Shown here piece by piece: positions 3,390 through 63,253 of a stretch of 64,000 nt of DNA. The stretch spans positions 6,129,501 to 6,193,500 of the forward strand of contig JAYJMM010000114.1 in assembly GCA_037349105.1 (NCBI GenBank), in the 5' to 3' direction. The stretch's first letter is position 1. Each line of letters opens with the position of its first letter. The notes under the pieces are model-generated. The model did no database searches. It saw only the letters and a program-made list of their open reading frames with translations, and was not told the DNA's origin. The position numbers were made by a program, and so were the translations under genes. The DNA comes from Limnomonas spitsbergensis (Eukaryota; Chlorophyta; Chlorophyceae; Chlamydomonadales).

Positions 3390-3589
3390 ACCAACCTTTG
3401 GCTGAGCAAGCTGCCGGGTACAGTAAGCCATGCTGCTCAGACCAGCCTTTGGCTGAGCAAGCCGCCGGGTACAGTAAGCCATGCTGCTTAGACCAGCCTT
3501 TGGCTGAGCAAGCCGCCGGGTACAGTAAGCCATGCTGCTCAGACCAACCTTTGGCTGAACAAGCCGCCGGGTACAGTAAGCCATGCTGC

Positions 3590-5351: not shown

Positions 5352-5964
5352 AGCCATGCTGCTGAGACCAACCTTTGGCTGAGCAAGCTGCCGGGTACAG
5401 TAAGCTCTGCTGCTCAGACCAGCCTTTGGCTGAGCAAGCCGCCGGGTAAAGTAAGCCATGCTGCTCAGACCAACCTTTGGCTGAGCAAGCTGCCGGGTAC
5501 AGTAAGCCATGCTGCTCAGACCAGCCTTTGGCTGAGCAAGCCGCCGGGTACAGTAAGCCATGCTGCTCAGACCAACCTTTGGCTGAGCAAGCTGCCGGGT
5601 ACAGTAAGCCATGCTGCTCAGACCAGCCTTTGGCTGAGCAAGCTGCCGGGTACAGTAAGCCATGCTGCTCAGACCAGCCTTTGGCTGAACAAGCCGCCGG
5701 GTACAATAAGCCCTGCTGCTCAGACCAGCCTTTGGCTGAGCAAGCCGCCGGGTACAGTAAGCCATGCTGCTCAGACCAACCTTTGGCTGAGCAAGCTGCC
5801 GGGTACAGTAAGCTCTGCTGCTCAGACCAGCCTTTGGCTGAGCAAGCCGCCGGGTACAGTAAGCCATGCTGCTCAGACCAACCTTTGGCTGAGCAAGCTG
5901 CCGGGTACAGTAAGCCATGCTGCTCAGACCAGCCTTTGGCTGAGCAAGCCGCCGGGTACAGTAA
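4741..5964. repeat. 612-bp higher-order repeat, two tandem copies
   Basis: 4741-5352 is repeated head to tail as 5353-5964, that is 12 x 51 bp. Both copies start with the rare TGCTGCTGAGACC variant and differ by very few bases. This is the clearest true higher-order repeat in the array. Confidence 0.8.
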
Positions 5965-8900: not shown

Positions 8901-10453
8901 GTAAGCCCTGCTGCTCAGACCAGCCTTTGGCTGAGCAAGCCGCCGGGTACAGTAAGCCCTGCTGCTCAGATCAACCTTTGGCTCAGTAAGCCGGGTACAG
9001 TAAGCCATGCTGCTCAGACCAGCCTTTGGCTGAGCAAGCCGCCGGGTACAGTAAGCCATGCTGCTCAGACCAGCCTTTGGCTGAGCAAGCCGCCGGGTAC
9101 AGTAAGCCATGCTGCTCAGACCAACCTTTGGCTGAACAAGCCGCCGGGTACAGTAAGCCATGCTGCTCAGACCAACCTTTGGCTGAGCAAGCCGCCGGGT
9201 ACAGTAAGCCCTGCTGCTCAGATCAACCTTTGGCTCAGTAAGCCGGGTACAGTAAGCCATGCTGCTCAGACCAACCTTTGGCTGAGCAAGCCGCCGGGTA
9301 CAGTAAGCCCTGCTGCTCAGATCAACCTTTGGCTCAGTAAGCCGGGTACAGTAAGCCCTGCTGCTCAGACCAGCCTTTGGCTGAGCAAGCCGCCGGGTAC
9401 AGTAAGCCCTGCTGCTCAGACCAGCCTTTGGCTGAGCAAGCCGCCGGGTACAGTAAGCCCTGCTGCTCAGACCAGCCTTTGGCTGAACAAGCCGCCGGGT
9501 ACAGTAAGCCATGCTGCTCAGACCAACCTTTGGCTGAGCAAGCTGCCGGGTACAGTAAGCTCTGCTGCTCAGACCAGCCTTTGGCTGAGCAAGCCGCCGG
9601 GTACAGTAAGCCCTGCTGCTCAGACCAACCTTTGGCTCAGTAAGCCGGGTACAGTAAGCCATGCTGCTCAGACCAGCCTTTGGCTGAGTAAGCCGGGTAC
9701 AGTAAGCCCTGCTGCTCAGACCAGCCTTTGGCTGAGCAAGCCGCCGGGTACAGTAAGCCATGCTGCTCAGACCAACCTTTGGCTGAGCAAGCCGCCGGGT
9801 ACAGTAAGCCATGCTGCTCAGACCAACCTTTGGCTGAACAAGCCGCCGGGTACAGTAAGCCCTGCTGCTCAGATGAACCTTTGGCTCAGTGTGCCGGGTA
9901 CAGTAAGCCATGCTGCTCAGACCAGCCTTTGGCTGAGCAAGCCGCCGGGTACAGTAAGCCCTGCTGCTCAGACCAGCCTTTGGCTGAGCAAGCCGCAGGG
10001 TACAGTAAGCCCTGCTGCTCAGACCAGCCTTTGGCTGAACAAGCCGCCGGGTACAATAAGCCATGCTGCTCAGACCAACCTTTGGCTGAGCAAGCTGCCG
10101 GGTACAGTAAGCCATGCTGCTCAGACCAGCCTTTGGCTGAGCAAGCCGCCGGGTACAGTAAGCCATGCTGCTCAGACCAACCTTTGGCTGAGCAAGCTGC
10201 CGGGTACAGTAAGCTCTGCTGCTCAGACCAACCTTTGGCTCAGTAAGCCGGGTACAGTAAGCCATGCTGCTCAGACCAGCCTTTGGCTGAGTAAGCCGGG
10301 TACAGTAAGCCCTGCTGCTCAGACCAGCCTTTGGCTGAGCAAGCCGCCGGGTACAGTAAGCCATGCTGCTCAGACCAGCCTTTGGCTGAACAAGCCGCCG
10401 GGTACAGTAAGCCCTGCTGCTCAGACCAGCCTTTGGCTGAGCAAGCCGCCGGG

Positions 10454-11703
10454 CAGGGTAACCCGGTACGGAAACACGGTACGGGAATACGGTGCGGTAC
10501 GGTACGGATACGGTACGGGCAAAAGGGACAATACGGTAGGGCAATACGGTCCAAGATTTTTTCGCATTTTCAAGGCTCTGAACAGCAGGATCCACACAGA
10601 GAAACACATGCATGCAACACTCCCATGACTGTTCGACCCCATGCACATCCTGACATACTGCATGGCTGCATGACAGCCCCCATGCAATTTTGCATGGCCC
10701 CCAAATAAACACCTAGGATCTCCATGCATGCTTGCAGATTTACCATGCTGACATGCTAGGGGAAAATATGATCATTGATTCAATCCCAAACTCCTCACAC
10801 ATCGCCATTACAATGTTCCAACATGCCATTCAGCATTTCAGTAATTCAGTCAGTCCATATAAACGCTACCCACCAGCATGGCACATGAAATTTTGCATGC
10901 ATGAATCTAGCAATAGAAACAAGAGGCCTCAGAATCACCTTGCATAGTTGCTGAGTTGCATCATTACATGGCATGCATGGAAATCACTTCGTAAGGAGAC
11001 ACGGAGCTCCTGTGTCTTGCCTCCCTCATGGGAGTCCTGGACACGGATGCTCCTACTACTCCTAGCCTCCTCCCTCCATGTACGGTATGCAGCTTTGGAT
11101 TGTGACTTGGCGCCAAGTTGTGTCTTATTGCCACTGAGTATTGGAGTAGACTTGGACTTTCACGAGCAACGAATGCCTCTTTACCTCTGGAAGCGAGCGA
11201 GCTTACGTAGATTTTGATGTCCTGTCACAGTCCACACGACTGTGAACTTTGTGGACTTGCCAGACGAGGGAGACGATCACACGACATCACCGCTGTATGC
11301 ATGTATCACCCGTCCTAATAACGCCTTACCCTTTTACACGCCGCAACTTGTCCTGCTATGCCCGCGAGGTGATTTGTAAATCGCATATAGTGCCGACGAT
11401 CATCTTATCGCTAAATTTACATCGCCCACTCTTGGCCTGGCCAGCCTTCGATGATGACGCACGGCTGCAAAATCCAATGCGCATCAGCCGTGTACGCTGC
11501 CTTCCTAGGACTTGTTCTCAGCGCTGCCCCTACGTCCATCCTGATAATATCTGATATGTCTGACTGGTCTGTGCACTTCTGCTCCCATGCAGTCATGCAG
11601 TGCAGGAAATGGCGGCCGTACTTGGCCGTGTTGCAAACGGTACGGTGCGGTACGGATACGGTACGGGATTTTAGGCCAATACGGCCCGTACTGGGTAACC
11701 CTG
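10454..11703. mobile_element. Non-autonomous hAT-like DNA transposon, 1250 bp, inserted in the satellite
   Basis: The element begins CAGGGTAACCCGGTACGG and ends with the near reverse complement, giving imperfect terminal inverted repeats of about 18 bp with 2 mismatches. The flanks are perfect 8-bp duplications CCGCCGGG at 10446-10453 and 11704-11711. Removing the element plus one duplication restores an intact 51-bp unit. Both subterminal regions are dense in the motif TACGG/GGTACGG (10470-10550 and 11639-11690), arranged in direct orientation, like the subterminal transposase-binding repeats known from hAT elements. The interior has no recognisable transposase and many short CATGCATG-type words. 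CAGGG ends with 8-bp target duplications are the hAT signature; superfamily assignment is inference from these ends only. Confidence 0.88.
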
Positions 11704-14700
11704 CCGCCGGGTACAGTAAGCCATGCTGCTCAGACCAACCTTTGGCTGAACAAGCCGCCGGGTACAGTAAGCCCTGCTGCTCAGATGAACCTTTGGCTCA
11801 GTGTGCCGGGTACAGTAAGCCATGCTGCTCAGACCAGCCTTTGGCTGAGCAAGCCGCCGGGTACAGTAAGCCCTGCTGCTCAGACCAGCCTTTGGCTGAG
11901 CAAGCCGCAGGGTACAGTAAGCCATGCTGCTCAGACCAGCCTTTGGCTGAACAAGCCGCCGGGTACAATAAGCCATGCTGCTCAGACCAACCTTTGGCTG
12001 AGCAAGCTGCCGGGTACAGTAAGCCATGCTGCTCAGACCAGCCTTTGGCTGAGCAAGCCGCCGGGTACAGTAAGCCATGCTGCTCAGACCAACCTTTGGC
12101 TGAGCAAGCTGCCGGGTACAGTAAGCTCTGCTGCTCAGACCAGCCTTTGGCTGAGCAAGCCGCCGGGTACAGTAAGCCATGCTGCTCAGACCAACCTTTG
12201 GCTGAGCAAGCTGCCGGGTACAATAAGCCATGCTGCTCAGACCAGCCTTTGGCTGAGCAAGCCGCCGGGTACAGTAAGCCATGCTGCTCAGACCAACCTT
12301 TGGCTGAGCAAGCTGCCGGGTACAGTAAGCCATGCTGCTCAGACCAGCCTTTGGCTGAGCAAGCTGCCGGGTACAGTAAGCCATGCTGCTCAGACCAGCC
12401 TTTGGCTGAACAAGCCGCCGGGTACAGTAAACCCTGCTGCTCAGACCAGCCTTTGGCTGAGCAAGCCGCCGGGTACAGTAAGCCATGCTGCTCAGACCAA
12501 CCTTTGGCTGAGCAAGCTGCCGGGTACAGTAAGCTCTGCTGCTCAGACCAGCCTTTGGCTGAGCAAGCCGCCGGGTACAGTAAGCCATGCTGCTCAGACC
12601 AACCTTTGGCTGAGCAAGCTGCCGGGTACAGTAAGCCATGCTGCTCAGACCAGCCTTTGGCTGAGCAAGCTGCCGGGTACAGTAAGCCATGCTGCTCAGA
12701 CCAGCCTTTGGCTGAGCAAGCTGCCGGGTACAGTAAGCCATGCTGCTCAGACCAGCCTTTGGCTGAGCAAGCCGCCGGGTACAGTAAGCCATGCTGCTCA
12801 GACCAGCCTTTGGCTGAGCAAGCCGCCGGGTACAGTAAGCCATGCTGCTCAGACCAACCTTTGGCTGAGCAAGCTGCCAGGTACAGTAAGCCATGCTGCT
12901 CAGACCAGCCTTTGGCTGAGCAAGCTGCCGGGTACAGTAATCCATGCTGCTCAGACCAGCCTTTGGCTGAGCAAGCCGCCGGGTACAGTAAGCCATGCTG
13001 CTCAGACCAGCCTTTGGCTGAGCAAGCCGCCGGGTACAGTAAGCCATGCTGCTCAGACCAGCCTTTGGCTGAGCAAGCTGCCGGGTACAGTAAGCTCTGC
13101 TGCTCAGACCAGCCTTTGGCTGAACAAGCCGCCGGGTACAGTAAGCCATGCTGCTCAGACCAACCTTTGGCTGAGCAAGCTGCCGGGTACAGTAAGCCAT
13201 GCTGCTCAGACCAACCTTTGGCTGAACAAGCCGCCGGGTACAGTAAGCCCTGCTGCTCAGACCAGCCTTTGGCTGAGCAAGCCGCCGGGTACAGTAAGCC
13301 CTGCTGCTGAGACCAGCCTTTGGCTGAACAAGCCGCCGGGTACAGTAAGCCATGCTGCTCAGACCAGCCTTTGGCTGAGCAAGCCGCCGGGTACAGTAAG
13401 CCATGCTGCTCAGACCAACCTTTGGCTGAGCAAGCCGCCGGGTACAGTAAGCCATGCTGCTCAGACCAACCTTTGGCTGAACAAGCCGCCGGGTACAGTA
13501 AGCCCTGCTGCTCAGACCAACCTTTGGCTCAGTAAGCCGGGTACAGTAAGCCATGCTGCTCAGACCAGCCTTTGGCTGAACAAGCCGCCGGGTACAGTAA
13601 GCCCTGCTGCTCAGACCAGCCTTTGGCTGAGCAAGCCGCCGGGTACAGTAAGCCCTGCTGCTCAGACCAACCTTTGGCTGAGTAAGCCGGGTACAGTAAG
13701 CCATGCTGCTCAGACCAGCCTTTGGCTGAGCAAGCCGCCGGGTACAGTAAGCCATGTTGCTCAGACCTGCCTTTGGCTGAGCAAGCCGCCGGGTACAGTA
13801 AGCCCTGCTGCTCAGACCAGCCTTTGGCTGAACAAGCCGCCGGGTACAGTAAGCCATGCTGCTCAGTACAGCCTTTGGCTGAGCAAGCCGCCGGGTACAG
13901 TAAGCCATGCTGCTCAGACCAACCTTTGGCTGAGCAAGCTGCCGGGTACAGTAAGCCATGCTGCTCAGACCAGCCTTTGGCTGAGCAAGCCGCCGGGTAC
14001 AGTAAGCCCTGCTGCTCAGACCAGCCTTTGGCTGAGCAAGCCGCCGGGTACAGTAAGCCATGCTGCTCAGACCAACCTTTGGCTGAACAAGCCGCCGGTA
14101 CAGTAAGCCATGCTGCTCAGACCAGCCTTTGGCTGAACAAGCCGCCGGGTACAGTAAGCCATGCTGCTCAGACCAGCCTTTGGCTGAGTAAGCCGGGTAC
14201 AGTAAGCCATGCTGCTCAGACCAGCCTTTGGCTGAGCATGCCGCCGGGTACAGCAAGCCCTGCTGCTCAGACCAGCCTTTGGCTCAGTAAGCCGGGTTTA
14301 GTTAGCCCTGCTGCTCAGACCAGCCTTTGGCTGAGTAAGCCGGGTACAGCAAGCCCTGCAGCTCAGACCAGCCTTTGGCTCAGTAAGCCGGGTACAGCAA
14401 GCCCTGCTGCTCAGACCAGCCTTTGGCTGAGTAAGCCGGGTACAGCAAGCCCTGCTGCTCAGACCAGCCTTTGGCTGAGCAAGCCGGGTACAGCAAGCCC
14501 TGCTGCTCCGACCAGCCTTTGTCTGAGCAAGCCGGGTACAGTAAGCCCTGCTGCTCAGACCAGCCTTTGGCTCAGTAAGCCGGGTACAGCAAGCCCTGTT
14601 GCTCAGACCAGCCTTTGTCTGAGCAAGCCGGGTACAGCAAGCCCTGCTGCTCAGACCAGCCTTTGGCTGAGCAAGCCGGGTACAGCAAGCCATGCTGCTC

Positions 14701-14704
14701 AGAC
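11704..14704. repeat. 51-bp satellite array (right arm) and degenerate edge
   Basis: Continuation of the array after the transposon. Its first about 650 bp duplicate the last about 650 bp before the insertion: the unique variant CAGATGAACCTTTGGCTCAGTG occurs at about 9870 and 11782. From about 14230 the array switches to mainly 48-bp units reading GTACAGCAAGCCCTG, with scattered substitutions, and stops at about 14704. A diverged edge is typical of satellites that are homogenised in the centre. Confidence 0.93.
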
Positions 14705-48219: not shown

Positions 48220-51200
48220 TCATCGCCTCTTCTTGTGAGGACAATCGTAAGACCTGCAGTTAATACCAGGGCGGAGGCAAGGAAGACATTCAGAAACATT
48301 TTCTCCCCCCAGCAGGGGTCCCCACCTAAACCCTAAACTACCGTCACTAGACAGACCAGCAGTCATCACTGGCTGGAGGCAGGCAAGGCATTCGGATACG
48401 GTATACCTGGGGCATTGAGAGTGAGGGGAACAGTAGGGGCCAGATACGCAACGTCCACCCTGTTACCATGCACCAGGGTCAATGACGTCACACCTTGGGC
48501 CCTGCTAAAAAAAGGTTCGGCCTCGTGGGCGCCCAAGTGTCTGGTTAGGAGGAAGAAAGAAAGGTACATGCACCATGGTTGCTTATACTCTCCGCTAACT
48601 AGCTTACCCGCCAATGCCTTCAACCCTACTCCCCCACCTAGCACCCACCAGTGCCCTTCCTCCTTGCAGTGGTAGCAGGTGTTCCTCGCCTTCTTGAGTG
48701 CCGCCTTCTCGGGGCAATTCTGAGACCAGTGCCCCTCCTTGTGGCAGTGGTAGCAGGTGTCCGCAGAGCGCTTGTTGCTGGGTGGGACAGCCCACGGGCA
48801 CTTGCTGGTCCTGCATGGGATCGAGAGGTAAGGGTGGTTAAATGGGCAGGCGCCACAGGGACGTGAAGTTGCGTAACAGCATTCCATAGCCATGGTGATG
48901 CAGTGCAACTCAATAATATCCACAGGTTGGTGCAAGGAAACTTCAATTCAAAATAACTCCGTCTCTGCACATCCGAATAGCAATGTTTTTGAGGAACTCT
49001 AGTCACAGCAACTCAGGATGGCAATGATGGCATTTAAGACACTGATACAGCATCAGTGCTGTGCAATTGCGCCGTAATTCATAAATCACGTAAGTAATTA
49101 CGGGCCCTTGCGGATACAATTAGCTGATTTTGCCTTGAAAATGACTGAAACTCAGCTATGCAATTCAGCTACTGTAAAGACCGTAATCGGCACAGCACTG
49201 TACAGCATGCTGTGGCAGGGCTCATCATTACAGCGTTGGGGTCATATTGTTGCCCCCCCCCCTTGTCCGTCCAGCCTTCATAACAAGCTATACGCAGTTG
49301 CCGGTACAGCGTTGAAGCATCCACCCATTTTTGCCTCCTTGAAAGACCCAAACAGGAAACCAGGAAGAGCAGAGAACATCGGGATAAGATCACATCAAAA
49401 AATTGCTTCGTTCCAATTAAGTCCTCAACAAAGCCTGTCATTCACTAATCACAGCCCGTGCTTGAGCAAACATTCCACGTTCCCTTATCCCGAGCCTCCG
49501 GATGCATGGCACTTGTTTACTTTTGCCAAAAAGCAGACATAGCCTTTGACCCCAATCTGCACAGCTCCTTTGACACCCATCCCGAGAGGAGAACCCCTCA
49601 CCTCCTTTCTTTACCGCCCATTCCCCCTGGCCCAAGGACTCACCAGTGCTCGGTGCTGAGGCATACGGTGCAGCGGTGTTGGGGGGGAGTCCCAGCCTGG
49701 CTGTTTGGGGCCTGTGATGTCCCAGGGGATCCAGAGGGACCAGCCCCTTGGCTCCCCAACTGATGCAGGCTGGCAGCTGGAGTAGATGGGCTCGCCCCTT
49801 GGCCACCCCACTGATGCTGGCTGGCAGCTGGCGTCAGTGGGTGGCCAGCCCCTTGGCTGCCCCACTGCAGCTGGCTGGCAGCTGGGGTAGATGGGCTTGC
49901 CCCTTGGCTGCCCGACTGATGTAACAAGGGCAATGGAACATGCCCGAAGCTGTCTGAGGTGCAGGTCTTCTGGTGACCTGTCGTCGGAGTCGTCGCCTGT
50001 CTACCTAAGAGGGAAGGCGGGCCCGTCGATAGAGGCGCAGGCGCTGGGCCAGACGGGACGTCAATGAATTCACACATTCCTCGACCACACCTGAGGAGCG
50101 GATGTAGTCAGCGGGCACGAGCAGGAGGAACGTGAGACACAGGAACATGGAGAGGCAAAAGTGGAAATGAGGTATCGGTGCGCCTATTTCTTTTCTGCCT
50201 TCTTGACGGAAGGGGTCAAGATACAAAAGTGATAGTGGTTCAAAAGAGTGATGCTTTATTAGGGCTGAGCCTCATTCTTGGAAACCACCATCCTATCAGG
50301 GCCCAGTTGTTTCTCTTAGTCATTTGCTAGCAAGGAAAGTTGCAAGCAGTTGCTAGCAATTGCAAGCATAAGTTGCAAGCAGTTGCAAGCATAAGTTGCA
50401 AGCATTTGCAAGTTTTAACGCAAGCATAGAAACAGCAAGGAAAATTGCAACAGTTCCAGCATAGACGCAACTACCCTCAAGCCCTAGGTGGATAACAGAT
50501 TCGTCACTCTTCCCTACTTAAAGTGTGCCCTGTTGGGATTGGCCATATGGGTCCTCAACGATCACCACTTTTCCTCACTCATCCCCACCTGAAGTACATC
50601 CTGTTGTGTCTGGGGGCAACGATTCAATATCAGCATCACTCTTTCCCACTCTTCCCCACCTGAAGTACACCCTGTTGGGATAAATGGTCATGAACAACCA
50701 GTCACACCACTCTTTCCCACTCTTCCCCACCTGAAGTACATTCTGTTGGGATCAGCGGTTGAGCCCCAAGCTTGCTCGCAAGGCTCCGGAGGCTCACAGT
50801 CACACAGGGGGACGGGCAGACTGACCCCCTGCTGGCTTGATGCTGGAGCTGCTGCCTGCTGGCTCCCTACTGCTGCTGCCTGCTGGCTTTCTGAGCCTGT
50901 TGTTGCCGCCTTGGGGCCATCTGGAATTAAGAAGAATTCACACTTGCCACTGCCACACCTACAAGTCCATTGGGCAGGCAAGGTGTAATAACACTGCTTT
51001 CAGCATACCAGTGCTTCAGCTACATTCAACTACATTTCAGCTGTTTTCCAGCTACACTTCAGCCATGTCCTGGCCAGCGGCCAAGGGTCCTTGAGGAGCG
51101 CGCCCTGTTGCTGGGGCTGCCAGCCGTGGGTGGGTTGTGGATTAGTCCACTCTTACCCAGTAGTGTATGCGAGGCAGCCCCCACAATAGTTTTGCTCATT

Positions 51201-54200
51201 TGCGGCCCAAAGGTCAAAATACGTGATCTGGCAGGCCTGGCGGATTTATTTGCATTTAAGTCAATATTGACCGTGGACTTTTAGGAACATTTCACAAAGT
51301 GATCTGCAGGTGCAAAGGCTCGTGTGTCGAAGAGTGAAATTATAAACAAAACACGCGCCAGTGGCAACACTCATGCGTTTCTTCACAACTAGGGAGGAGC
51401 AAACAAAACGGCCCCAAAGGCATTGCAGGGTGGGATGCAGGGCGGGAGGGAGGCAGGCAGGCCAGCAAGGCTTGATCATTGCGGTACACAACAAAATGCA
51501 GGGGCCAAGTATGCCTTTGATGGGAGTCGAGTCGGTACAAGGTTCCTCAGCAGCATCACTCTCCCCCCACTCTTCTCCACCAGAAGTACAATCTGTTGGG
51601 GTCTGCGGTCATGGCTAACCAGCCGCATCACTCTTCCCCACTCTTCTCCACCAGAAGAATACCCGGTTGGGGTCTGCGATCATGACTAACCAGCCACATC
51701 ACTCTTTCCCACTCTTCCCCACCTGAAATACATTCTGTTGGGATCAGCACTTGAGCCCCAAGCTCGCTTGCAAGGCTCCGCAGGCTCACAGTCACACAGG
51801 GGGGCGGGCAGACTGACCCCTTGCTGGCTTGATGTTGGAGCCGCTGCCTGCTGGCTTGCCTCTGGTGCCACCAGTGTCCCCTGCTGGCGCCTTACTGCTG
51901 CTGCCTGCTGGCTTGCTGCTGGTATCGCTGCCTGCTGGCTCCCTACTGCTGCTGCCTGCTGGCTTGCTGAGCATGTTGTTGAAGCTGGAATTAAGAAGAA
52001 TTCACACTTGCCACTGTCACACCTACAAGTCCATAGGGCAGGCAAGGAGAAATAACATTACTTTCAGCTAAACTTCAGCTACATTTCAGCAATGTCCTGG
52101 CCAGCGGCCGAGGGGTCCTGGAGCAGCAACCCTGCTGCTATGGCTGCCAGCCATGGGACGGTCGTAGATTGGTCCCCTGTGACCCAGGAGTAAATGCCAG
52201 ACAGCTCCCAAAATATGACGGCTCATAGGCGTCCTGAAGGTGTAAGGAAGTGAACAGGGCCCGGCAGTCTTATTTACAAAGTCCCGCATGTTTACAATGG
52301 ACTTTTAGAAACATGTCACTTCGTGGTCTGCATGCGCAAAGGCTCATGTGTTAGAGGGTGGACTTGTAAACAAAACGTTCGCCGGTGGCAACACTCATGC
52401 GTTTCTTGACACCCAAGGAGGAGCAAGCAAAAACGCTCCGAAGGCAATGCAGGGCGGGAGGCAGGCAGGCCAGCATGGCTGGATCATTGCGGAACACGAA
52501 AAATGCAGGGAAATAGTATGCTTTAATGAGAGTCGAGTCGGTACAAGGTTCCTCAGCAGCATCACTCTTTCCCACTCGTCTCCACCAGAAGTATACCCTG
52601 TTGGGGTCTGCAGTCATAAATAACCAGCCACATCACTGGTTCCCACTCTTCCTCACCTGAAGTACATTCTGTTGGGATCAGCGGTTGAGCCCCAAGCTTG
52701 CTCACAACGCTCCGGAGGCTCACAGTCACACAGGGGGACCGGCAGACTGACGCCTTGCTGGCTTGATGCTGGAAACGCTGCCTGCTGGCTTGCTGCTGGT
52801 GCCGCCAGTGTCCCCTGCTGGCTTCCTACTGCTGCTGCCTGCTGGCTTGCTGAGCCTGTTGTTGCCGCCTTGGGGCCGTCTGGAATTAAGAAGAATTCAC
52901 ACTTGCCGCTGCCACACCTACAAGTCCATAGGGCAGGCAAGGAGATATATAACTGCATTAAGCATACCGGCGCTTCAGCTATATTTCAGCAATGTCCTGG
53001 CCAGCGGCCGAGGGGCCCTGAAGCAGCATGCACTTTTCTGGGGCCGCCAGCCATGTGCTGGTCGTAGGTTGGTCCCCTATGACCTAGGAGAACATGCCAG
53101 ACAGCCTCCAGAAAATATGATTCATTAGCGTCCCGAAGGTCTAAGGACATGAGCAGGGCCCGGCAGTCTTATTTAACACAAAGTCCCGCATGCTTTCAAT
53201 GAACTTTTAGGAGCATGCCACATAGTGGCCTGCAGGCGCAAAGGCTCATGTGTTAAAGGGAGAAATTATGAACCAAACGTGCGCCGGTGGCTACACTCGT
53301 AAGTCCCTTGACAGCCAAGGAGGACCAAACAAAAACACTTCAAAGGCAATTCAGGGCAGGAGGCAGGCAAGCCAGCATGGCTGATTCATTGCGGTACACA
53401 ACAGAATGCAGGGAGTGAAAATCAGTGCAGTGCCGATTACGGTCCTTGCGGTGGCTGAATTACGCAGCTGAGTTTCAGTCACCGTAATTTCAAGGCAAAT
53501 TCAGCTACTGTAACCAGGAAAGGACCGTAATTACTTACACAATGGATGAATTACGGCGCAATGGCACAGCACTGGTGAAAAATGCTTTGATGGGAGTTGA
53601 GTCGGTACAAGGTTCCTCAGCAGCATCACTCTTCCCCATTCTTCCCCACCCGAAGTACATTATGTTGGGGTCTGCGGTCATAAATAATCAGCCACATCAC
53701 TCTTTCCCACTCTTCCCCACCTGAAGTACATTCTGATGGGATCAGCGGTTGAGCCCCAAGCTCGCTCGCAAGGCTCCGGAGGCTCACAGTCACACAGAGG
53801 GACCGGCAGACTGACCCCCTGCTGGCTTGATGCTGGAGCCGCTGCCTGCTGGTTTGCGGTGGAAGCCACTGCCTGCAGGCTTTCTGCCGGTGCTGCTGCC
53901 TGCTGGCTTGCCATTTGATATGGGCCTACCGCTGCCGCATTGGGGCTGTCTGGGATGAAGAAGAATTCACATTTGCCACTGCTACACCTACAAGTCCATT
54001 GGGCAGGCAAGGAGAAATAACATTGCTTTCCAGGGCAGTCACCGATTCTGCTCGCCCGAAGCCGAACTGCCGTCCGAATTTGGTCGGCCATAATAGCTGT
54101 TTTACATTATCCAGCCGAATCGATATTATTTTTTCTTCGGCGTGGAGGACACTTACACTGGCTGTCCCCACGACCAGGCCCACACTTCTTCGGAGGTGTA

Positions 54201-57200
54201 AATCTGAGAGCAACATGTCCCGTCATGGCAACTCGGCTCCATGGCGGTTATATATAACGATCGTCTCATACACGTATGTGAAGGTTTCGTGCTGAAACTA
54301 TGTGGAATCCGTCCAGCAGCGAGGAAGATGTCGAGATGAGCTGGAATGGATCCGAAACAAGCATGTCTTGTTCGGCTTCAAAATTTCCACACTCGTACGG
54401 GTATCATGCTGCATTTCAAGTACATTTCAGCGGTGGCCTAAACAGCAGCCGAGGGGGCCTTGAGTAGCATGCCCTGTTGCTGCGGCTGCCAGCCGCGGGT
54501 GGGTTGTGGATTTGTTCCCTTTTACCCAGTAGTGGATGCCGGGTAGCCCCCGAAGAGTATGGCCCATTGGCGTGCCGAGGGTATACGATCGTGAGCAGGG
54601 CTTGAGCAGGGCCTGGCACTTTTATCAACCACTAAGTCCAGACTCTTTTTTTAACAGACCTTGATGAATATTCCAGATGGTGATCTGCAGGTGCAATGCC
54701 CATGTGTCTTAAGGGTCCTTACCAAAGGCCATTATTAAGTAAAACGCTCGCTGATGGCAGCACACATGCGTCGATTGACCCCCAAGGAACAGCAAACAAA
54801 AACACCCATTGGCGACGCAGAGGGGGTGGCAGGCAGGCAGGCCAGCAAGACTGAATAGAGGCGGTGCAAAACCAATTGCAGGCAGCTAGAAACTAAAAGT
54901 GTCTTAATTATCGTCGTTCATCACTTCGTTCCTCAGCTGCATCACACTTTCCCCACTCTTTCCCATATGAAATACACCCTGCTGGGGTCAGCAGCTATGA
55001 CCAGCCAGCCACACCACTCTTTCCCACTCTTCCCCACCTGAAGTACATCCTGTTGGGGTCGGCGGTTGAGCCCCAAGCTTGCTCACAAGGCTTCGGTGGC
55101 TCACAGTCACACAGGGGGACGGGCAGCCTGGGCAGGCCAAGCGAGATGAGGCCAGCAGGAGATCCAGACCCAGATCCCAATGCCGATCCTACTGCAAGTG
55201 GTCCCTCCTCGTTGGATGCGCCCACATTGCATCCTTGGGGAGTGGCTGAGGGTCCCGGCAGAGCAGTCAGGGGTGGAGGGCCAGTAAAGCAATGCAAATT
55301 CCCAGCCGGAGCTGAGAGTCCTGATTGGGCAGTAAGCGGTGGTCGGTCCTCAGAGGACTGCAGATTCGCAGCTGGAGCTGAGGGGCCTGACGCAGCTGGA
55401 GCTGAGGGGCCTGACGCAGCTGACAGGGGCGTTGGGTGGGCAGAGGAATGTATATTCGCAGCAGAAGCTACTCCAGCACCTTCCAGCAGGCCTGGATCAG
55501 GATTTCCAGTTCCAGATCCAGATCCAGATCTAGGAGTCAGAAGGGGCTTCGAGTCCTGCGCACCGCGCCTGGCGGCGTCCCTGTCATCGTCGGAGTCCAC
55601 GAGACTGATCACCTCAATGGGAACAGCCTCCGAGCCAGGGCTGGCAGCCAACTGCTCCGCGGCCTCCACATCGCCGCCGCCGTCGAACACGAGCCGCCTG
55701 ACGGCCCCCGAAGGCTGCGAGAAGTAGCCTCGGATGCTGGTTTGGCGCATGCCCGAGCCGCCACCGCCACCGCTACCAGCGGCACCGCCTCCACCTGCAT
55801 CCCCATCGGCCGTGCACTCCACCTTCATCATGCCAGAGCGATGCTTGTCAGGGCCAGTGCCGCCGCCGCTGTCACCTCTGCAACCTGCCGTGGGATCCCC
55901 AAACTGCACCCTCACTTCTTGCGCCTCGTCCCCCTCACTCTCACTACTGAGCACCTGCTGCTGGCGATAATGGATACGAGACCGCGTCTGGCTGTCGTCT
56001 CCGAAACCGAACGGTCGAATTGTACCGCCCCCGGAGCCGCGCTGGAGGGACGTCCCGCCATTCGGCGGCGAGGGCCTCGCTTGGTACTGCCGGCCTGCCC
56101 CCGGCGCAGCGCCTGCTGGCGGCGCCATCGGCAGAGGTCCATGAGCGCCTGGGCTGCTGCCTGCTGCCTGCTGTACATCCTGCTCCGGGTCCCGGCTGTC
56201 CCCGCCTCCTCCTTCACCCCCTTGGTCCCCTTCCCCCGCTCCACCACTGACCCCTTTGCCTCTGCCTCCACCCTGGTCACCTCCGTCACTGTCATCGCTG
56301 TCAGCTGGGCTGTCCCCTCCACCCAAGTCACCACCCCCTCCATCCCCATCCTCACTCCCAGCCTCTTCGTCATCTGCATCGTCCTCCCAATCAATATCGC
56401 TCTCATACCCCTCAGGGTCAGGGTGCAGGGCGGCCAGCACGTCCTGAGCCTGAAAGGAGAGAGAGAGAGAGAGGGGGAAGTCAGTACGGCGGGCATGTAC
56501 ACATTATATTATTTCAGGACCATAGGTTTCTATCATTCTTTCAAAATCACAGGATCCCAGACATAAGATTTGTTGCGCACGACAGTATGCACCCTGGTGA
56601 TTCCCTGGTGCCCCGATTGAATGCACAGAGGGCATTGGGAACCCAACTGCTTACCTTCGCCTTGCAGCAGGTACCCTGCACCCTCCAACAGCTTACCTAT
56701 ACCACACAACCTCAACAGCTTCCCTACACCCTCTGGCAGCTTCCCTACCCTCCCTGGGTTCCAGGTTGAATTCACATGCTCAAGATCATACTCCCGGGAC
56801 GAAGCAATAACTTTTTTTTCACATGGCAGATACACGCGCGCATACGCCCAGGGGCACAGTTCAATGGAGCACATCGTTTTTTGCTCCAGCAACCGGTATC
56901 CACAGGCGGTGGGGTGTGCAGGTCCTTACCCTTCACAGCCAAGTTCCTGATGGGATCCAGAACTAAAGAACTTGTAAACCATATTGTCTATGTTTGCCGA
57001 GCTGGCAGCAGACTCACATAGATATGCTTGCAACCCTTCAAGCGGCACCCTGAGTCCCGCATCCTGAATGCTGACCCCCCAAGCCCTGTGCCACCGACAT
57101 CTGCAGTCCTCACCCAGTGACCACACAGGGGCATTTCCTTGCGGTTCTGCTCCTTCTCGTTAAACACCTTGCCCGCGTTCTCCGCCCTGAGTGCAGGAAA

Positions 57201-60200
57201 GGCAGGCATGACGATGACACAGACGCAGAAAGATGCCCGGGGGGTGAAAATCTATGTTTTTTTCGTGACTCTCTACATGTCATTTACTCTCCGGCCTTTG
57301 GCCTTTGGCCGGAGGTCCTATTTTGGGACAGCCATCCTGCTTTGGACATAATTTGTAGGCCGATCCAGGTTTGTTCCCAATCAGGCCTTTAGCGGCTGAG
57401 GTGCGGCCTATCAGAAGGTGGCCTTGTAGCCGAAAAAATAAACATAGGTGGCCATATTGTTGCAATGCACTACTAGTTCATAGGGTGTTTATTGTCACAT
57501 GCCTGACCAAACTGCAGCACAGAAGGGCTGTACACATCACTTAACAGCAGTACACAGAGTACGGACCCAGGAGCACCCAGCACTACATCATCACTCACTT
57601 GCGGTACAGTGTCAGCCAGTGGCTAAGCAGTTTCTTGTCATCCAGGATCTCCTCCATGGCTGCTCTGCCCAGCTCCCGAGAACGCCTGGCCTGGCCGGAT
57701 TTGTCCATCCTCCTTTTCAACTCCTTGCGCAAGGCTGGGCATGAGGAGGACGGGGACCAGTGTGCAAGGCTAGGCATGAGGAGGGCGGGGACCAGTGTGC
57801 AAGGCTGGGCATGAGGAGGGCGGGGACCAGTGTGCAAGGCTGGGCATGAGGAGGGCGGGGACCAGTGTGCAAGGCTGGGCATGAGGAGGGCGGAGACCAG
57901 TGTGCAAGGCTGGGCATGAGGAGGGCGGGGACCAGTGTGCAAGGCTGGGCATGAGGAGGGCGGGGACCAGTGTGCAAGGCTGGGCATGAGGAGGGCGGGG
58001 ACCAGTGTGCAAGGCTGGGCATGAGGAGGGCGGGGACTAGTGTGCAAAGCTGGGCATGAGGAGGGCGGGGACCAGTGTGCAAGGCTGGGCATGAGGAGGG
58101 CGGGGACCAGTGTGCAAAGCTGGGCATGAGGAGGGCGGGGACCAGTGTGCAAGGCTGGGCATGAGGAGGGCGGGGACCAGTGTGCAAGGCTGGGCATGAG
58201 GAGGGCGGGGACCAGTGTGCAAGGCTGGGCATGAGGAGGGCGGGGACCAGTGTGCAAAGCTGGGCATGAGGAGGGCGGGGACCAGTGTGCAAAGCTGGGC
58301 ATAAGGAGGGCGGGGACCAGTGTGCAAAGCTGGGCATGAGGAGGGCGGGGACAGTGTGCAAAGCTGGGCATGAGGAGGGCGGGGACCAGTGTGCAAGGCT
58401 GGGCATGAGGAGGGCGGGGACAAGTGTGCAAGGCTGGGCATGAGGAGGGCGGGGACCAGTGTGCAAGGCTGGGCATGAGGAGGGCGGGGACCAGTGTGCA
58501 AGGCTGGGCATGAGGAGGGCGGGGACTAGTGTGCAAAGCTGGGCATGAGGAGGGCGGGGACCAGTGTGCCAAGCTGGGCATGAGGAGGGCGGGGACCAGT
58601 GTGCAAGGCTGGGCATGAGGAGGGCGGGGACCAGTGTGCAAAGCTGGGCATGAGGAGGGCGGGGACCAGTGTGCAAAGCTGGGCATGAGGAGGGCGGGGA
58701 CCAGTGTGCAAAGATGGGCATGAGGAGGGCGGGGACCAGTGTGCAAGGCTGGGCATGAGGAGGGCGGGGACCAGTGTGCAAGGCTGGGCATGAGGAGGGA
58801 GGGGACCAGTGTGCAAGGCTGGGCATGAGGAGGGCGGGGACCAGTGTGCAAGGCTGGGCATGAGGAGGGCGGGGACCAGTGTGCAAGGCTGGGCATGAGG
58901 AGGGCGGGGACCAGTGTGCAAGGCTGGGCATGAGGAGGGCGGGGACCAGTGTGCAAGGCTGGGCATGAGGAGGGCGGGGACCAGTGTGCAAAGCTGGGCA
59001 TGAGGAGGACGGGGACCAGTGTGCAAAGCTGGGCATGAGGAGGGCGGGGACCAGTGTGCAAAGCTGGGCATGAGGAGGGCGGGGACCAGTGTGCAAAGCT
59101 GGGCATGAGGAGGGCGGGGACCAGTGTGCAAAGCTGGGCATGAGGGCTGGTGCTTAAATTGAACCATGTCCCGACTTACAGGTCCAGAAACCATTTCACC
59201 AACGCACCTGCCATAAGCCGGGACCTAAGCCCTAAAACCTACACCTCTAACCTGCCATCAGCCGGGCCCTCAAGCCTTCACCTTACCCCCTCACCTGCCA
59301 TCAGCCAGACCCTGCAACCTTAGACCCTACCCCCCTCACCTGCTATCAGCCGTGCCCCTCACCCTACTCTCTCACCTGCCATCAGCCGGGTCATGAACCT
59401 TTTACCCTGATCCCTCACTTGTCATCAGCTGTGTCCTAAACCCTAAACCCTACCCCCTCACCTGCCATCAGCTGGGTCATAAACCTTTTACCCTAATCCC
59501 TCAACTGTCATCAGCCGTGCCCTTAACCCCAAACCCTACCCCCTCACCTGCCATCAGTCTGGCCCTGAAATGCGTTAAGCCATGGTGGAGCATCACTCGG
59601 TCGCCGCAGTTGCTGCCCACATAGTACTCATGAGCGGGGGGCAGATTCACATGGGACTGCTGCCTGCTCCCGCTCCCGCTGCCACCCTGATCAGTTTCCT
59701 CCCTTTCCTCCTCCGGCATCAGCAGCCCAGTGTGCATGTCCTGCGGGCGGCCTGACAGGATCAACCTGGAGGAGTAGGCAGGGAGGGGGGGGGGGGGCAA
59801 CAGGACCTAGTCAGGTGACAGCTGCCCCATGCGCATGTCGTTAAGGCGATCAACCTGAAGGTGTAGGCAGGGAGGGGGAGGCAACAGGAACTTGCCAGAG
59901 GAAATATATGAAGGGGGTCCATGACAGAGCTACAGAGAAATCCAACATTTCCAGCATCAGCTTTCGCATATCCTCCAACAGCTTCCCAGTAGCCTCAGAA
60001 AATCTCCCCACAGCCCATGGCAAATTACAATGACCCTCAAATAGCTTCCCTCGCTGTTAGGAAGCTTCCCCACATCCTCCATCAGCTTCACTACACCTTC
60101 TAACAGCTTCCCTACACCCTCCATCAGCTTCCCTATACCTTCTAACAGGTTCCCTTCACCCTCCACCAGCTTCCCTTCACCCTCCAGCAGCTTGCTTTGA

Positions 60201-61859
60201 CCCTCCCGCAGCTTCCCTACACCTTCTAATAGTTTTGCTACACCCTCCGATAGCTTCCCTTCACCATCCAATTGCTCTCATTCACCTTCTCACAACTTCC
60301 TTGTGCCTCCTGACAGCTGCCCGGCACCTTCCAACAACTTCCATTCACCTTGCAGCAACTACCCTATCACTTCCAACAGCTTCCCCACACTCTCCAACAG
60401 CTTCTCTACACCTTCCGAAAGCTTCCCTGTACCCTCCAGCAGCTTCCTTTTCCTTCCTGGCTGACGTACACACCTCCTCAGGTAGTGTCTCTTGTTCCTC
60501 TTGCGGTTGCACAGACCACACTTATTCTTCCATTCTGAGCCATAGTGCACATAGTGCTGGCGGCCGCCATCAGAGACAAAGTCCCGCTCCTCATCTTGCC
60601 CTTGCACCCGCTCCTCCTCCTCCTCCTCCTCCGGGTCATCATGCCCATCCTGTTCCGGATCCTCAATGTGCTGATCAGGTTCTCGTTTCAGGTTGGGGTT
60701 CCCACCGCCCCCGTTCTGTCCGGCCGATGCGCAGCAGGCTGCCCCTGCACTCTGCCCTGCACCATGCAGCTGACAATGCTGCTGGTCACGAGAAAGATGC
60801 CGGCAAACAGGATCAGACTTGATATCCTGGCTAGGGCGCAATGAATGGGTCCCCGCCGCCGCAGCCGCCGCCGCAGCAGCAGGAGTGGCGGCAGCAGGTT
60901 CAGCAGCTTCTTCCCTGCCGCAGGCAGTAGCAGCAGCAGGAGCATCAGCAGCAGCATCAGTGGCAACAAGTACAGGCGTCTCCTGGCCGCCACTGGCTTC
61001 AGCCTCATCGTCATCCTCCATCACCAGCACTCGGACACCTCGGCGACGGAGGCCCGGACCAGCCGCCAGCCTGCCCGCTCTATCCGACTGCACCGCCAGT
61101 GCCTCGTCCTCCAGCCCTTCCTCCTCATCCAGGCCCAGTGCCATCAGCTTGCAGCCGCCACCCATCCCGAGCTGCTGCTCAGCCGGCTGCTGCAGCGGCT
61201 CAACCAGTGCTTGCTCATTGGTGGTAGATGGGTTCAGTAGCCGGCGCACACGGCAACTGGACGAGTGGACAGGGGCAGCAGCAGCGGCAACAGCAGCAGC
61301 AGCCATGGCCTTAATTGGTTTAGCCTCAAGGGGCCGCGATGCAGCTGCCGCCGCTGCTGCTGCTGCTGCTGCCGTGGTTGCAGCTCTCCTTGTCCACGAG
61401 GTCGGCCCAGCATCACCACCCTCGCTGCCGGTAGACATCGTAGCAGAAGCAGCATGAGGGGCTGGCACCTGCAAGGCTCTGCCCCTCGTCCGCAAAGCAG
61501 GCCCAGCATCACCACCCTTGCTGTCAAAGGTTGCTGCAGCGGGGGCAGTCTGAGCAGCCGACAGCCGATTGGCTCTGCGAGCACCTTTCCCTGCCACTTG
61601 ACCAGCTGCTGATGCTGCAGTTTTCTGACCGCTGCCTCGCGTTGACCTTCTTGCAGCTTTGCGGCAACCAACCTCCACGTGCTCCCTATGCTTGGAGTTG
61701 AGAATGTCCGCTACTTGGTGAGGCCTCCTCCTCCCATGGCCCTCCTCATCTGGCGACGTGTCATCCGAGCTGGAGGCTCCATCAGAGCTAGCGGCTTCAT
61801 CAGGGGTGGCCTGACCACAGGGTCAGGGTCAGGGTCAGGGTCAGGGTCAGGGCCGGGGC

Positions 61860-61932
<73 letters not shown>

Positions 61933-63253
61933 AGGGTCAGGGTCAGGGTCAGGGTCAAGGTCAGGGTCAGGGTCAGGGTCAGGGTCAGGGTCAGGGTCAG
62001 GGTCAGGGTCAGGGTCAGGGTCAGGGTCAGGGTCAGGGTCAGGGTCAGGGTCAGGGTCAGGGTCAGGGTCAGGGTCAGGGTCAGCTAACTTCAAGATGCA
62101 TGTTAGATATCTACTGCAAAGAATATCAGGGGCCACTGATCCCATCGACACATGACAACGGTAGGTGATCCAACCCAATGGGGTGCCAGCTAACAGCCTG
62201 CTGGGGATTCAATGCCGATAGGTGGGCCTGGCTTGACAAGTCATGGCAATCAATGCATTTCATCTTCAATTCCACCATGCAGCTCCACTGCAGGACACGA
62301 ATTCAGTGGGTCTGATGGGTGGGGACCGAATGGATAAGTGTGAAGTCCCCACGTCTCGACTCGACTTGAAAAGTCAAGGCAAGGGCCATCCCGGCCGCCG
62401 CCCTCTGAGGCAAGGTAAGCGTCTATGTCAAGGACCAGTTCAGCGCAAAGCTGAGTGCCATGTCAGCACCAATGAAGTGCAAACCGGATTGCCACATCAG
62501 CACGCCATCAGCACAAAGCTGAGTGCCACATCAGCACCACATCAGCACCAAGATGTGTGTCCTGTCAGCACCACATTGGCAAATGTCGGCGCATGGCTAT
62601 CAGGCCCTGAGCATGCCTACCTCCTCAGACGCCACATCTTCATCATCCTCATCATCTGGCGCAACGAAGTCCTCGTCCGAGGAGCGAGGGTCGTCCCTTG
62701 CAGGGCTCCATACCTGTTTGCGCAGCTTGAAGTACGGGCTGGTGGGAACATGGTGCGCACCCGCTGCGGTGCGGCCAGCACGCCTCAACCTGCCACGTTG
62801 TCCCCGCTCTCCCTCATCGCCTGCACGCTCATCGTCGCGTTCTTCTGCTGCGGCAGTGCGGCGGGCTGAGACGCGGCGCCTTGCATCGGCCTTGCGCTTC
62901 TTTGGCTGCTTCCGAGGCCTGCCGCTGTGTCCCAAGTCGTCACCATCACCTGCCCCATCTCCACTGCTGCCGCCGCTACCGCTGGGTCCTGCCGGCACTC
63001 CCAGGGGCCGCTTAATCCCGCTCCGCCCATCCTCCGGGAATGCAGAGGAGGGGGCACCAACAGCACCGCCCGTCAAGGCTGACATCAGTGCCCAAGCCGC
63101 CGCATCGACCCCCTTTCCGTATTTGCCGCCGCCGCCGCCGCCATAACCATTGTCTTCAGAATCTCCGTCGCTGTCGTCGGTGAGCTCCGGACGCTCGCCC
63201 AGCTCGATGCAAGGAAGGCCGTTGAGGAAGTCACGGAGACCCTTTTCGCCCGC
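48220..63253 (-). CDS. DUF4211 - PIP - SIM - 5x GRF - 3x CCHC multi-zinc-finger protein (5' partial)
   Basis: Thirteen exons in transcript order, all phases agreeing, 1835 codons: 63253-62621, 61810-60474, 59765-59548, 57734-57599, 57186-57114 (or to 57018), 56449-55038, 53987-53721, 52917-52657, 52022-51723, 50958-50731, 50090-49644, 48810-48649, 48253-48220. Exon 1 has GRPRKQPKKRK (nuclear/AT-hook-like) and DEDFVAPDDEDDED. Exons 2-5 resemble DUF4211: CGLCNRKRNK, LILSGRPQDMHTG, YYVGSNCGDRVMLHHGLTHF. Exon 6 has a canonical PIP box QTSIRGYF (55744-55721) and the SUMO-binding-like VISLVDSDDD (55612-55583). Exons 6-11 encode five GRF zinc fingers of the TOP3A type (LCDCEPPEPCEQAW, NRMYFR|CGSGKCEFF) with A/Q/S-rich linkers. 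Exons 11-13 encode three C-x2-C-x4-H-x4-C knuckles, then KKRR and TGA. GRF and CCHC modules bind single-stranded DNA or RNA; the combination is unknown to me. No catalytic domain seen. The true start lies upstream. Confidence 0.75.
49054..49200. mobile_element. hAT-like MITE, 147 bp, in the penultimate-but-one intron of the zinc-finger gene
   Basis: Ends CAGTGCTGTGC and GCACAGCACTG are inverted repeats. The flanks TACAGCAT (49046-49053 and 49201-49208) are a perfect 8-bp target duplication. The interior has GTAATTACGG and CCGTAAT inverted words. Same family as 53423-53574. Confidence 0.88.
50090..55140 (-). repeat. Tandemly duplicated GRF exon-intron modules
   Basis: Half-GRF exons begin at 53987, 52917, 52022, 50958 and 50090, spaced 868-1070 bp. 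Each begins in phase with the single base that completes an arginine codon and starts with the second half of one GRF finger. The first four end with the first half of the next finger. Intron sequence is also shared (for example AAACAAAAC, GTGGCAACACTCATGCGT at 51364 and 52387). Each copy of the donor end (CTTCAG|GTGGGG) is followed inside the intron by one or two decayed copies of itself, at about 50595, 50660, 51590, 51650, 52590, 53650 and 54970. Confidence 0.88.
53423..53574. mobile_element. hAT-like MITE, 152 bp, between GRF exons
   Basis: Starts CAGTGCAGTGCC and ends GGCACAGCACTG. The flanks GTGAAAAT (53415-53422) and GTGAAAAA (53575-53582) match at 7 of 8 positions. Its interior is related to 49054-49200 in opposite orientation (GGACCGTAATTAC, TTACGGCGCAAT). 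It sits in the intron between the first and second full GRF exons. Confidence 0.8.
56640..56765. repeat. 21-bp-type intronic minisatellite (small cluster)
   Basis: CAGCTTCCCTACACCCTCYRR-like units, four or five diverged copies, just upstream (in the transcript sense) of exon 6 of the zinc-finger gene. The same motif forms a larger cluster in another intron of the same gene at 59985-60465. Confidence 0.65.
57735..59143 (-). repeat. 35-bp minisatellite, about 40 units, carrying a repeated 3' splice site
   Basis: Highly uniform 35-bp unit (plus-strand example 57771-57805) with GGCATGAGGAGGGCGGGGACC. In transcript orientation each unit reads a pyrimidine-rich CCCCGCCCTCCTCATGCCCAG followed by CCTTGC, which matches the real acceptor and first bases of exon 4 (57734). 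The array fills the 3' end of that intron and abuts the exon. One unit has a 1-bp deletion at about 58352. The minus strand is free of stops in the exon frame across the whole array. Confidence 0.93.
59200..59550 (-). repeat. About 45-bp repeats copying the exon 3 donor
   Basis: About nine diverged units, each with a version of CCTCACCTGCCATCAG (plus strand) and CCTAAACCCTACCCC. In transcript sense this is CTGATGGCAG|GTGAGG, the true donor of exon 3 at 59548. At least three upstream-strand copies (about 59290, 59377 and 59457) keep an intact GTGAG donor. Confidence 0.75.
59766..59895 (-). repeat. Duplicated acceptor region of exon 3
   Basis: GATCAACCTGGAGGAGTAGG then CAGGGAGG..GGCAACAGGA occurs at the true acceptor (59760-59805) and again, slightly changed (GATCAACCTGAAGGTGTAGG), at 59849-59892. 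Confidence 0.75.
59985..60465. repeat. 21-bp-type intronic minisatellite (large cluster)
   Basis: About 20 diverged units of AGCTTCCCTACACCYTCYAAC type directly downstream of the exon 2 donor of the zinc-finger gene. In the transcript sense it can be read as EGVGKLL heptads without stops. The splice that restores the DUF4211-like domain removes it. Confidence 0.8.
61818..62084 (-). repeat. (CCCTGA)n hexanucleotide array at an acceptor
   Basis: About 44 units of AGGGTC on the plus strand, with an internal GGGGTC subtype block at 61849-61931. In transcript sense, (CCCTGA)n and (CCCCGA)n run directly into the acceptor CTGTGGTCAG|GCCACC of exon 2 (61810), so the array replaces the usual pyrimidine tract. 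It is not the plant/algal telomere repeat. Confidence 0.9.
62085..62620. other. Remainder of intron 1 of the zinc-finger gene
   Basis: Contains a short repeated motif, TCAGCACCA/CATCAGCACC, five or six times at 62463-62575. No gene seen. Confidence 0.5.

Follow-up and report, generated by a model that had tools for sequence, protein, structure and literature searches.

PARI is a reader of SUMO-modified PCNA and carries both a PIP motif (PCNA-interacting peptide) and a SIM (SUMO-interacting motif). In Srs2, another such reader, the two motifs are close together, and the six residues between them are deemed too few for a 36-Å gap (PMC6116012). DUF4211, a domain of unknown function, is present in PRR12 and QSER1 (PMC11050278), and topoisomerase III tails place GRF fingers ahead of CCHC knuckles (PMC9369019). 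The locus described here lies in a window of 64,000 nucleotides (nt) from the green alga Limnomonas spitsbergensis (C114:6129501-6193500). Its minus strand can be read as a gene for a protein with a DUF4211-like domain, a PIP, a SIM, five GRF-like fingers and three CCHC knuckles. All coordinates are positions in this window, and window-style numbers above 64000 run past its end.

The best explanation is a single-gene nuclear scaffold that would dock on PCNA or SUMO-PCNA through its PIP and SIM and carry a zinc arm. This full account is tentative, at somewhat less than an even chance. It draws on exon phases that close from end to end, on exact motif matches, on an exon duplication under purifying selection and on an enrichment of SQ sites.

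Gene Structure

The gene was rebuilt by eye from the minus strand of the window and the sequence beyond it, and splice sites were picked by phase and motif. The resulting model has 17 exons and 16 GT-AG introns with closed phases, 6768 nt with a single terminal stop, and a predicted product of 2255 residues (by-eye splicing). Inside the window, 13 minus-strand exons run from 63253 to 48220 in phase, with GT-AG introns, to the protein end CPHKKRR and a stop, just as an earlier sequence-only reading had proposed. The first four exons lie outside the window (locus L003; window-style 66889-66034, 65602-65493, 64583-64404 and 64218-64105), so 63253 is a splice acceptor and not the gene start. That reading had taken the gene to span 63253 to 48220; the end at 48220 is upheld, and the model now reaches out to 66889. 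Its by-eye anatomy is otherwise correct nearly to the base. The exons inside the window are as follows.

62621-63253, minus strand: exon a, fifth of the gene and first in the window; last part of the N-terminal half of the DUF4211-like domain (63253-63164), followed by insert of low complexity; placed by phase and splice sites
60474-61810, minus strand: exon b; insert of low complexity, leading into the first part of the C-terminal half of the DUF4211-like domain (CGLCNRKR..., 60568-60474)
59548-59765, minus strand: exon c; continues the C-terminal half of the DUF4211-like domain (LILSGRPQD...), followed by HEYYVGSNCGDRVMLHHGLTHFRA; the block test extended as far as LLMPEEER
57599-57734, minus strand: exon d; segment past the DUF4211-like core; acceptor at the edge of a 35-bp minisatellite
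57114-57186, minus strand: exon e; placed by the gene model
55038-56449, minus strand: exon g; continues exon e in one open frame with a low-complexity stretch, PIP, SIM and the front half of finger 1
53721-53987, minus strand: exon h, 267 nt, phase 2-2; second half of finger 1, a linker and the first half of finger 2
52657-52917, minus strand: exon i, 261 nt, phase 2-2; second half of finger 2, a linker and the first half of finger 3
51723-52022, minus strand: exon j, 300 nt, phase 2-2; second half of finger 3, a linker and the first half of finger 4
50731-50958, minus strand: exon k, 228 nt, phase 2-2; second half of finger 4, a linker and the first half of finger 5
49644-50090, minus strand: exon l; back half of finger 5 (CGRGMCEFIDV, the most diverged), SQ-containing linker, first half of knuckle 1
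48649-48810, minus strand: exon m; remainder of knuckle 1, knuckle 2, most of knuckle 3
48220-48253, minus strand: exon n; end of knuckle 3, KKRR, stop TGA

An extra 17-nt micro-exon between e and g was rejected: exons e and g are both phase 0 and join directly, and inserting the micro-exon puts exon g out of frame. On the intact 2255-residue product, zf-CCHC alone passes its Pfam cut-off, and two other families are listed below theirs. A failure of such profile searches to find DUF4211 or GRF had been named beforehand as a refutation of the architecture; at the curated cut-offs that failure occurred, with the CCHC knuckles returned and neither DUF4211 nor GRF, although most of the finer tests described below favour distant homology to both. 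Rfam gave no match in the window at gathering scores. Genome searches covered 260 Mb in 124 contigs.

PIP and SIM Motifs

Two docking motifs and one weaker pattern lie in exon g.

55721-55744, minus strand: PIP box QTSIRGYF, residues 1455-1462, with in-frame Met1453 just before it
55583-55612, minus strand: SIM VISLVDSDDD, residues 1499-1508
55685-55699, minus strand: RRLVF, a weak match to the cyclin-docking RxL pattern

QTSIRGYF is a full match to the canonical PIP consensus Q-x-x-[ILMV]-x-x-[FY]-[FY] as quoted in PMC6116012. VISLVDSDDD matches a SIM rule of our own making, namely a hydrophobic core with an acidic flank. When the whole protein was shuffled 2000 times, the strict PIP arose in 0.85% of shuffles, a looser PIP in 2.25% and a match to the SIM rule in 0.65%; for 20000 shuffles restricted to residues 1220-1660 the figures were 0.12% for the strict PIP and 0.26% for the SIM, all of these rates being per protein. 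Both motifs had been picked out in the sequence-only reading, and as exact pattern matches that are rare in shuffles they are upheld. The PIP and SIM are 36 residues apart, and 36 flexible residues could span the 36-Å gap. With a canonical PIP and a SIM at this spacing, it is reasonable to read the product as a nuclear scaffold that would dock on PCNA and SUMO. RRLVF was set aside as a cyclin-docking site because the protein holds 10 matches to that pattern.

The DUF4211-Like Domain

The N-terminal half of the DUF4211-like domain comprises 128 residues (323-450, our own boundaries), of which 98 are encoded on the four exons beyond the window. The stretch between this half and the C-terminal one is of low complexity and about 595 residues long, again by our own boundaries. 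Individual blocks were placed in a carrier, a fungal-type DUF4211 sequence that scores 188.9 bits against PF13926. With the N block of the window protein the carrier scored 122.7 bits with a match from profile position 2, against 113.4-115.7 bits from position 23 at the earliest in four shuffles. The helix block gave 113.5 bits against 108.7-110.8 in three shuffles. The C block gave 149.5 bits against 135.6-144.0 in nine shuffles, and the carrier without a C block gave 136.6. Global alignment to a DUF4211 sequence scored 20 against -32 ± 12 in shuffles, none of 500 being as good. When the halves were aligned locally one by one, 18 of 1000 shuffles were as good for the C half and 155 of 1000 for the N half.

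The domain is probably homologous to DUF4211 and not a certified member of the family. The region had been called DUF4211-like from the sequence alone, a call that the shuffle-controlled block tests favour and the Pfam cut-off does not. Used as a genome query, the DUF4211-like core gave eight matches, all within this gene and at no other locus. A six-frame genome scan for PF13926 found no match, and its controls were equally silent. A PDB search with the C half returned a single chance-level match (E 0.65).

Residues 531-541 in exon a, inside the insert, read GRPRKQPKKRK, a basic run that resembles both an AT-hook and a nuclear signal. Downstream of exon c, a 35-bp minisatellite (57729-59145, 40.5 copies) makes up most of the c-d intron and touches the exon d acceptor. 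Of its three minus-strand frames, two are open throughout (open reading frames of 526 and 478 codons) and one is interrupted. Reading exon c on through its intron was tried; its own frame stops at 59501, so the minisatellite is not simply coding.

The C-Terminal Zinc Arm

Five fingers of the pattern C-x-C...R-x-Y-F-x-C-x4-C precede the knuckles. Each is rebuilt across an intron, and all five keep the four zinc ligands. The pattern has five matches in the product and none in 2000 shuffles. In every finger the intron falls between R-x-Y-F and the third Cys. The duplicated exons h, i, j and k differ in length, yet all four are multiples of 3 and phase 2-2, and they are 84-95% identical to one another. 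The six pairwise ratios of nonsynonymous to synonymous substitution (dN/dS) among them are 0.13, 0.43, 0.45, 0.47, 0.48 and 0.57. The introns before h, i, j and k share 70-83% identity over aligned columns (136-559 gap columns), whereas the last intron (k-l) is 46-49% identical to them. The array grew by duplication of phase 2-2 exons under purifying selection. Because every such exon completes one finger and begins the following one, the number of fingers can change with finger and frame left intact. The array is a clean case of how a zinc-finger series grows: the introns halve the fingers, so each duplicated exon adds one whole finger.

Tandem 71-bp units at 50563-50752, 51548-51742 and 53617-53749 extend over the ends of exons k, j and h. 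Read by eye, they duplicate each exon end together with the donor site and so offer candidate alternative 5' splice sites just downstream.

The identity of the fingers was compared with two other loci of the same genome. Locus L002 (G000:C114:3938985-3939080 and flanks) is a separate gene that encodes one canonical GRF finger, one whole CCHC knuckle and then the first half of a second; it is intron-split and was read by eye. Locus L001 (finger at about 1450-1650 in that locus's own numbering, minus strand; G000:C63:440179-440301) holds a canonical GRF finger and, by eye in the same frame, a SIM-like VVDLTEDDD and a PIP-like QLTLEACF; at a guess, it is perhaps an APE2-type tail.

All five fingers have R-x-[FY]-[FY] before the third Cys and the ligand order C-x-C...C...C. 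None of the five has the G of G-R-x-F or the Trp after Phe-Phe; they read NRMYF or IRMYF, then FFLIP, FFFIP or FIDVP, with Ile or Val at the Trp position. In finger 5 the second Phe and the Trp positions are lost. Against the canonical L002 finger, fingers 1 to 5 score 48, 40, 38, 51 and 38, values reached by 1, 12, 12, 0 and 14 of 1000 shuffles with Cys fixed. Against the L001 finger the corresponding counts are 2, 4, 5, 0 and 34 of 1000. Scores were 30-41 against the ZCCHC4 finger and 32-46 against the APE2 finger, with mixed shuffle outcomes. When the five fingers were placed behind the L002 finger, the GRF stretches reported by Pfam (E up to 10) rose from one to four, while all four Cys-fixed column shuffles stayed at one. 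Finger 4 alone behind the L002 finger added a second GRF stretch and raised the total to 53.3 bits. In hhalign comparisons, 1 and 2 of 150 shuffles and 2 and 1 of 200 did as well as the fingers.

The fingers are best described as GRF-like and degenerate, and these finer tests mostly favour a distant homology to GRF. The five GRF fingers of the sequence-only reading thus survive in number and ligand pattern, and fall short at the Pfam cut-off and in the G and Trp of the signature. In the genome, a finger query gave 10 matches: eight belong to this locus, and the remaining pair score weakly, at 20.7 and 17.4 bits. The two weak ones are the paralogue candidates L014 and L015; the part of L014 read by eye holds nothing GRF-like. 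A six-frame scan for PF06839 matched two other places and not this locus, as expected because its fingers are intron-split or below threshold. A PDB search with a finger found no relative.

Four residues, F61, R68, F76 and W78, are named for nucleic-acid binding in ZCCHC4 and APE2 (PMC6834594), and by our own alignment at most two of them are kept in the window protein. Fingers 1 to 5 carry net charges of -1, -2, -3, 0 and -4, whereas the six GRFs used as references range from +1 to +7; lengths differ in this comparison. Strong binding of single-stranded DNA by the fingers is doubtful given this neutral to acidic charge and the missing Trp, and the suggestion that the locus supplies many fingers that bind single-stranded DNA or RNA finds no support.

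Three C-x2-C-x4-H-x4-C knuckles stand at the C-terminus, all with correct spacing. zf-CCHC (PF00098, cut-off 20.8 bits) scores 28.7 bits on the full product and 41.8 on the tail, which bears out the three knuckles ending in KKRR that had been proposed. A rule based on aromatic residues marks nucleic-acid-binding CCHC knuckles, and it applies to knuckle 2 (Y, W) and knuckle 3 (Y, W) and not to knuckle 1 (T, W) (rule from PMC9369019). Knuckles 2 and 3 could therefore bind single-stranded nucleic acid, and knuckle 1 probably does not.

The linkers between the fingers are rich in SQ and TQ. Residues 1690-2180 (window 53987-49644) hold 21 such sites against 8.7 ± 2.5 expected, a count reached in none of 5000 shuffles and inflated by exon duplication; residues 1-1660 hold 6 against 9.8 in shuffles. 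In the non-duplicated exon l the count is 7, against 3.7 in shuffles (p 0.04). SQ sites are targets of ATM/ATR-type kinases. No definition of an SQ/TQ cluster domain was found in the literature searched. The cluster and the exon-duplication logic of the array both go beyond the sequence-only reading.

Repeats in the Window

A hexamer, CAGGGT as read on the plus strand, is repeated 44.5 times at 61818-62084, just upstream of the exon b acceptor. Positions 14-14704 are taken up by a satellite array in which a 51-bp unit recurs about 290 times.

Proposed Mechanism and Alternative Explanations

As a scaffold, one gene would yield a large, mostly low-complexity and presumably disordered nuclear protein. 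Its N-terminal part would be chromatin-associated through a diverged DUF4211-type domain split by the insert of about 595 residues. The PIP and SIM would place the protein at replication or repair sites, where a single molecule could hold the front face of PCNA and simultaneously a SUMO attached to PCNA or to a neighbour. The C-terminal zinc arm would consist of the five GRF-like fingers with Q/S/A-rich, SQ-bearing linkers, followed by the three knuckles. Knuckles 2 and 3 and the basic tail may touch single-stranded nucleic acid, while the neutral-to-acidic fingers may act mainly as a protein-binding or spacing array. The SQ linkers would be substrates of ATM/ATR-type kinases, and finger number would be changeable by gain, loss or skipping of exons. 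A bolder form of the scaffold is rather unlikely: a new SUMO-PCNA reader, being a DUF4211-type chromatin protein in which PIP and SIM bind at once, checkpoint kinases phosphorylate the SQ linkers, and in-frame skipping of split-finger exons tunes the number of fingers from one to five. If true, such a reader would tie DUF4211 directly to replication. In a DUF4211 relative that has both a SUMO motif and a canonical PCNA motif, that link would be open to direct testing.

Several results weigh against the scaffold. DUF4211 (PF13926, gathering 27 bits) was not reported on the intact product, on five pieces of it or on the joined halves. When the N and helix blocks of the window protein were set before the C part of the carrier, the match covered the carrier only (56.9 bits, profile 93-137). 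Local alignment of the joined halves, with the insert omitted by choice, was not significant, 219 of 1000 shuffles being as good. GRF (PF06839, gathering 25.9 bits) was likewise not reported on the intact product or the five pieces, and scores of the fingers against two NEIL3 fingers were not significant. In the chimera with all five fingers behind the L002 finger, the total GRF score drops slightly, to 49.2 from 51.3 bits. The hhalign probability for GRF is only 12-17%, over the last 20 finger columns only. The PIP and SIM are short, and chance matches to such motifs are expected across a proteome. Taken singly, segments of the SQ/TQ region give p values of 0.04-0.35.

The strongest rival divides the locus into two adjacent genes and is itself unlikely. 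A DUF4211-like gene would end near exon e or early exon g, and a second gene of about 800 residues would start at Met1453 (MRQTSIRGYF...) with an N-terminal PIP, the SIM, five GRF-like fingers and three knuckles. Met1453 lies two residues ahead of the PIP, and N-terminal PIP boxes are common in repair proteins such as UNG2, MSH6 and LIG1. Frame preference within exon g is mixed in part: one of 14 windows (residues 1280-1340) scores higher in another sense frame, and three windows past residue 1520 score higher in an antisense frame. Exon g nevertheless stays open in one frame for 470 codons, from its acceptor as far as finger 1, and is joined in phase to exon e. Residues 1251-1452, ahead of the putative second start, prefer the predicted frame, at 0.34 bits per codon against 0.19 and -0.27 in the other sense frames and -0.07, -0.03 and 0.11 in antisense. 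TGTAA is the green-algal poly(A) signal, and it is absent from the minus strand between exon e, which ends at 57114, and Met1453 at 55750, where only about 0.8 would be expected (12 in 20 kb). On the two-gene side, GRF followed by CCHC is a known Top3 tail (PMC9369019) and occurs in L002 of this genome. The frame and exon g evidence for a single gene is suggestive, not decisive. If two genes are true, the PIP-SIM-GRF-CCHC protein stands and the DUF4211 link falls.

An RNA-metabolism protein is similarly improbable. Its zinc arm would bind RNA in the manner of ZCCHC4 or of zinc-knuckle proteins, and the PIP and SIM would be coincidental or serve SUMO-dependent nuclear bodies only. The GRF and CCHC domains of ZCCHC4 help to build an RNA-binding surface (PMC6834594), the fingers score about as well against ZCCHC4 as against APE2, and knuckles 2 and 3 carry both aromatics of the nucleic-acid-binding type. 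The product has, however, no methyltransferase and no RNA-binding domain other than zf-CCHC above the Pfam cut-off, and its PIP is fully canonical. Moreover, QSER1 is presented as an epigenetic regulator and PRR12 as a nuclear protein (PMC11050278).

That the product regulates chromatin in the manner of PRR12 and QSER1, with the zinc arm incidental, is decidedly unlikely. Its PIP would couple it to replication, renewing the chromatin or DNA-methylation state behind forks. QSER1 is described as acting against DNA hypermethylation and shares DUF4211 with PRR12, which itself has AT-hooks (PMC11050278). In the window protein the DUF4211-like blocks lie in the N-terminal half, GRPRK with its basic flank (residues 531-535) is loosely AT-hook-like, and the DUF4211-like core matches this locus alone in the genome; family membership, however, is below the Pfam cut-off. 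That the finger array is a relic of recently duplicated exons, usually skipped or untranslated, is very improbable, for despite its repeat-rich flanks and the losses in finger 5, the lengths of its four exons stay multiples of 3, dN/dS is 0.13-0.57 in all six pairs and every finger retains its four zinc ligands.

Comparison with Known Systems

The scaffold proposed here shares features with several described proteins. The window protein has three blocks in the same order as the DUF4211 proteins (PF13926; animal PRR12 and QSER1), namely FVVPDDDE..., an SSHW helix and C-x2-C-NR...SGRP, each scoring above all shuffles tried in the carrier. It differs in scoring below the Pfam cut-off, in being split by the insert, and in carrying a PIP, a SIM and a zinc arm.

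Topoisomerase III tails likewise have GRF ahead of CCHC, the first two ligands one residue apart and several copies of each (PMC9369019), whereas the window product shows no topoisomerase domain in Pfam over its full 2255 residues and has five degenerate, neutral-to-acidic fingers. ZCCHC4 (PDB 6uca) combines CCHC in a single chain with a GRF finger whose motif is altered (RRFYAC; PMC6834594); its N6-adenine methyltransferase domain was not found in the window product by Pfam, and the F61/R68/F76/W78 set is only partly kept there. Within the same genome, the L002 gene also places GRF before knuckles, and finger 1 aligns with its finger from P-x-C-x-C to D-x-P. The L002 finger, unlike those of the window, passes Pfam (48.2 bits, by-eye splicing) and keeps G-R-x-F and the Trp.

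Srs2 and PARI are the nearest counterparts for paired docking motifs, and the window product differs from both in having no helicase domain by Pfam. The PIP of Srs2 is non-canonical and six residues from its SIM (PMC6116012), whereas the PIP of the window protein is canonical and 36 residues from its SIM. The combination of DUF4211-like domain, PIP, SIM, GRF-like fingers and CCHC knuckles is not named in the excerpts of the literature searched on these domains and on SUMO-PCNA. Its parts are of known kinds, and their combination looks unusual.

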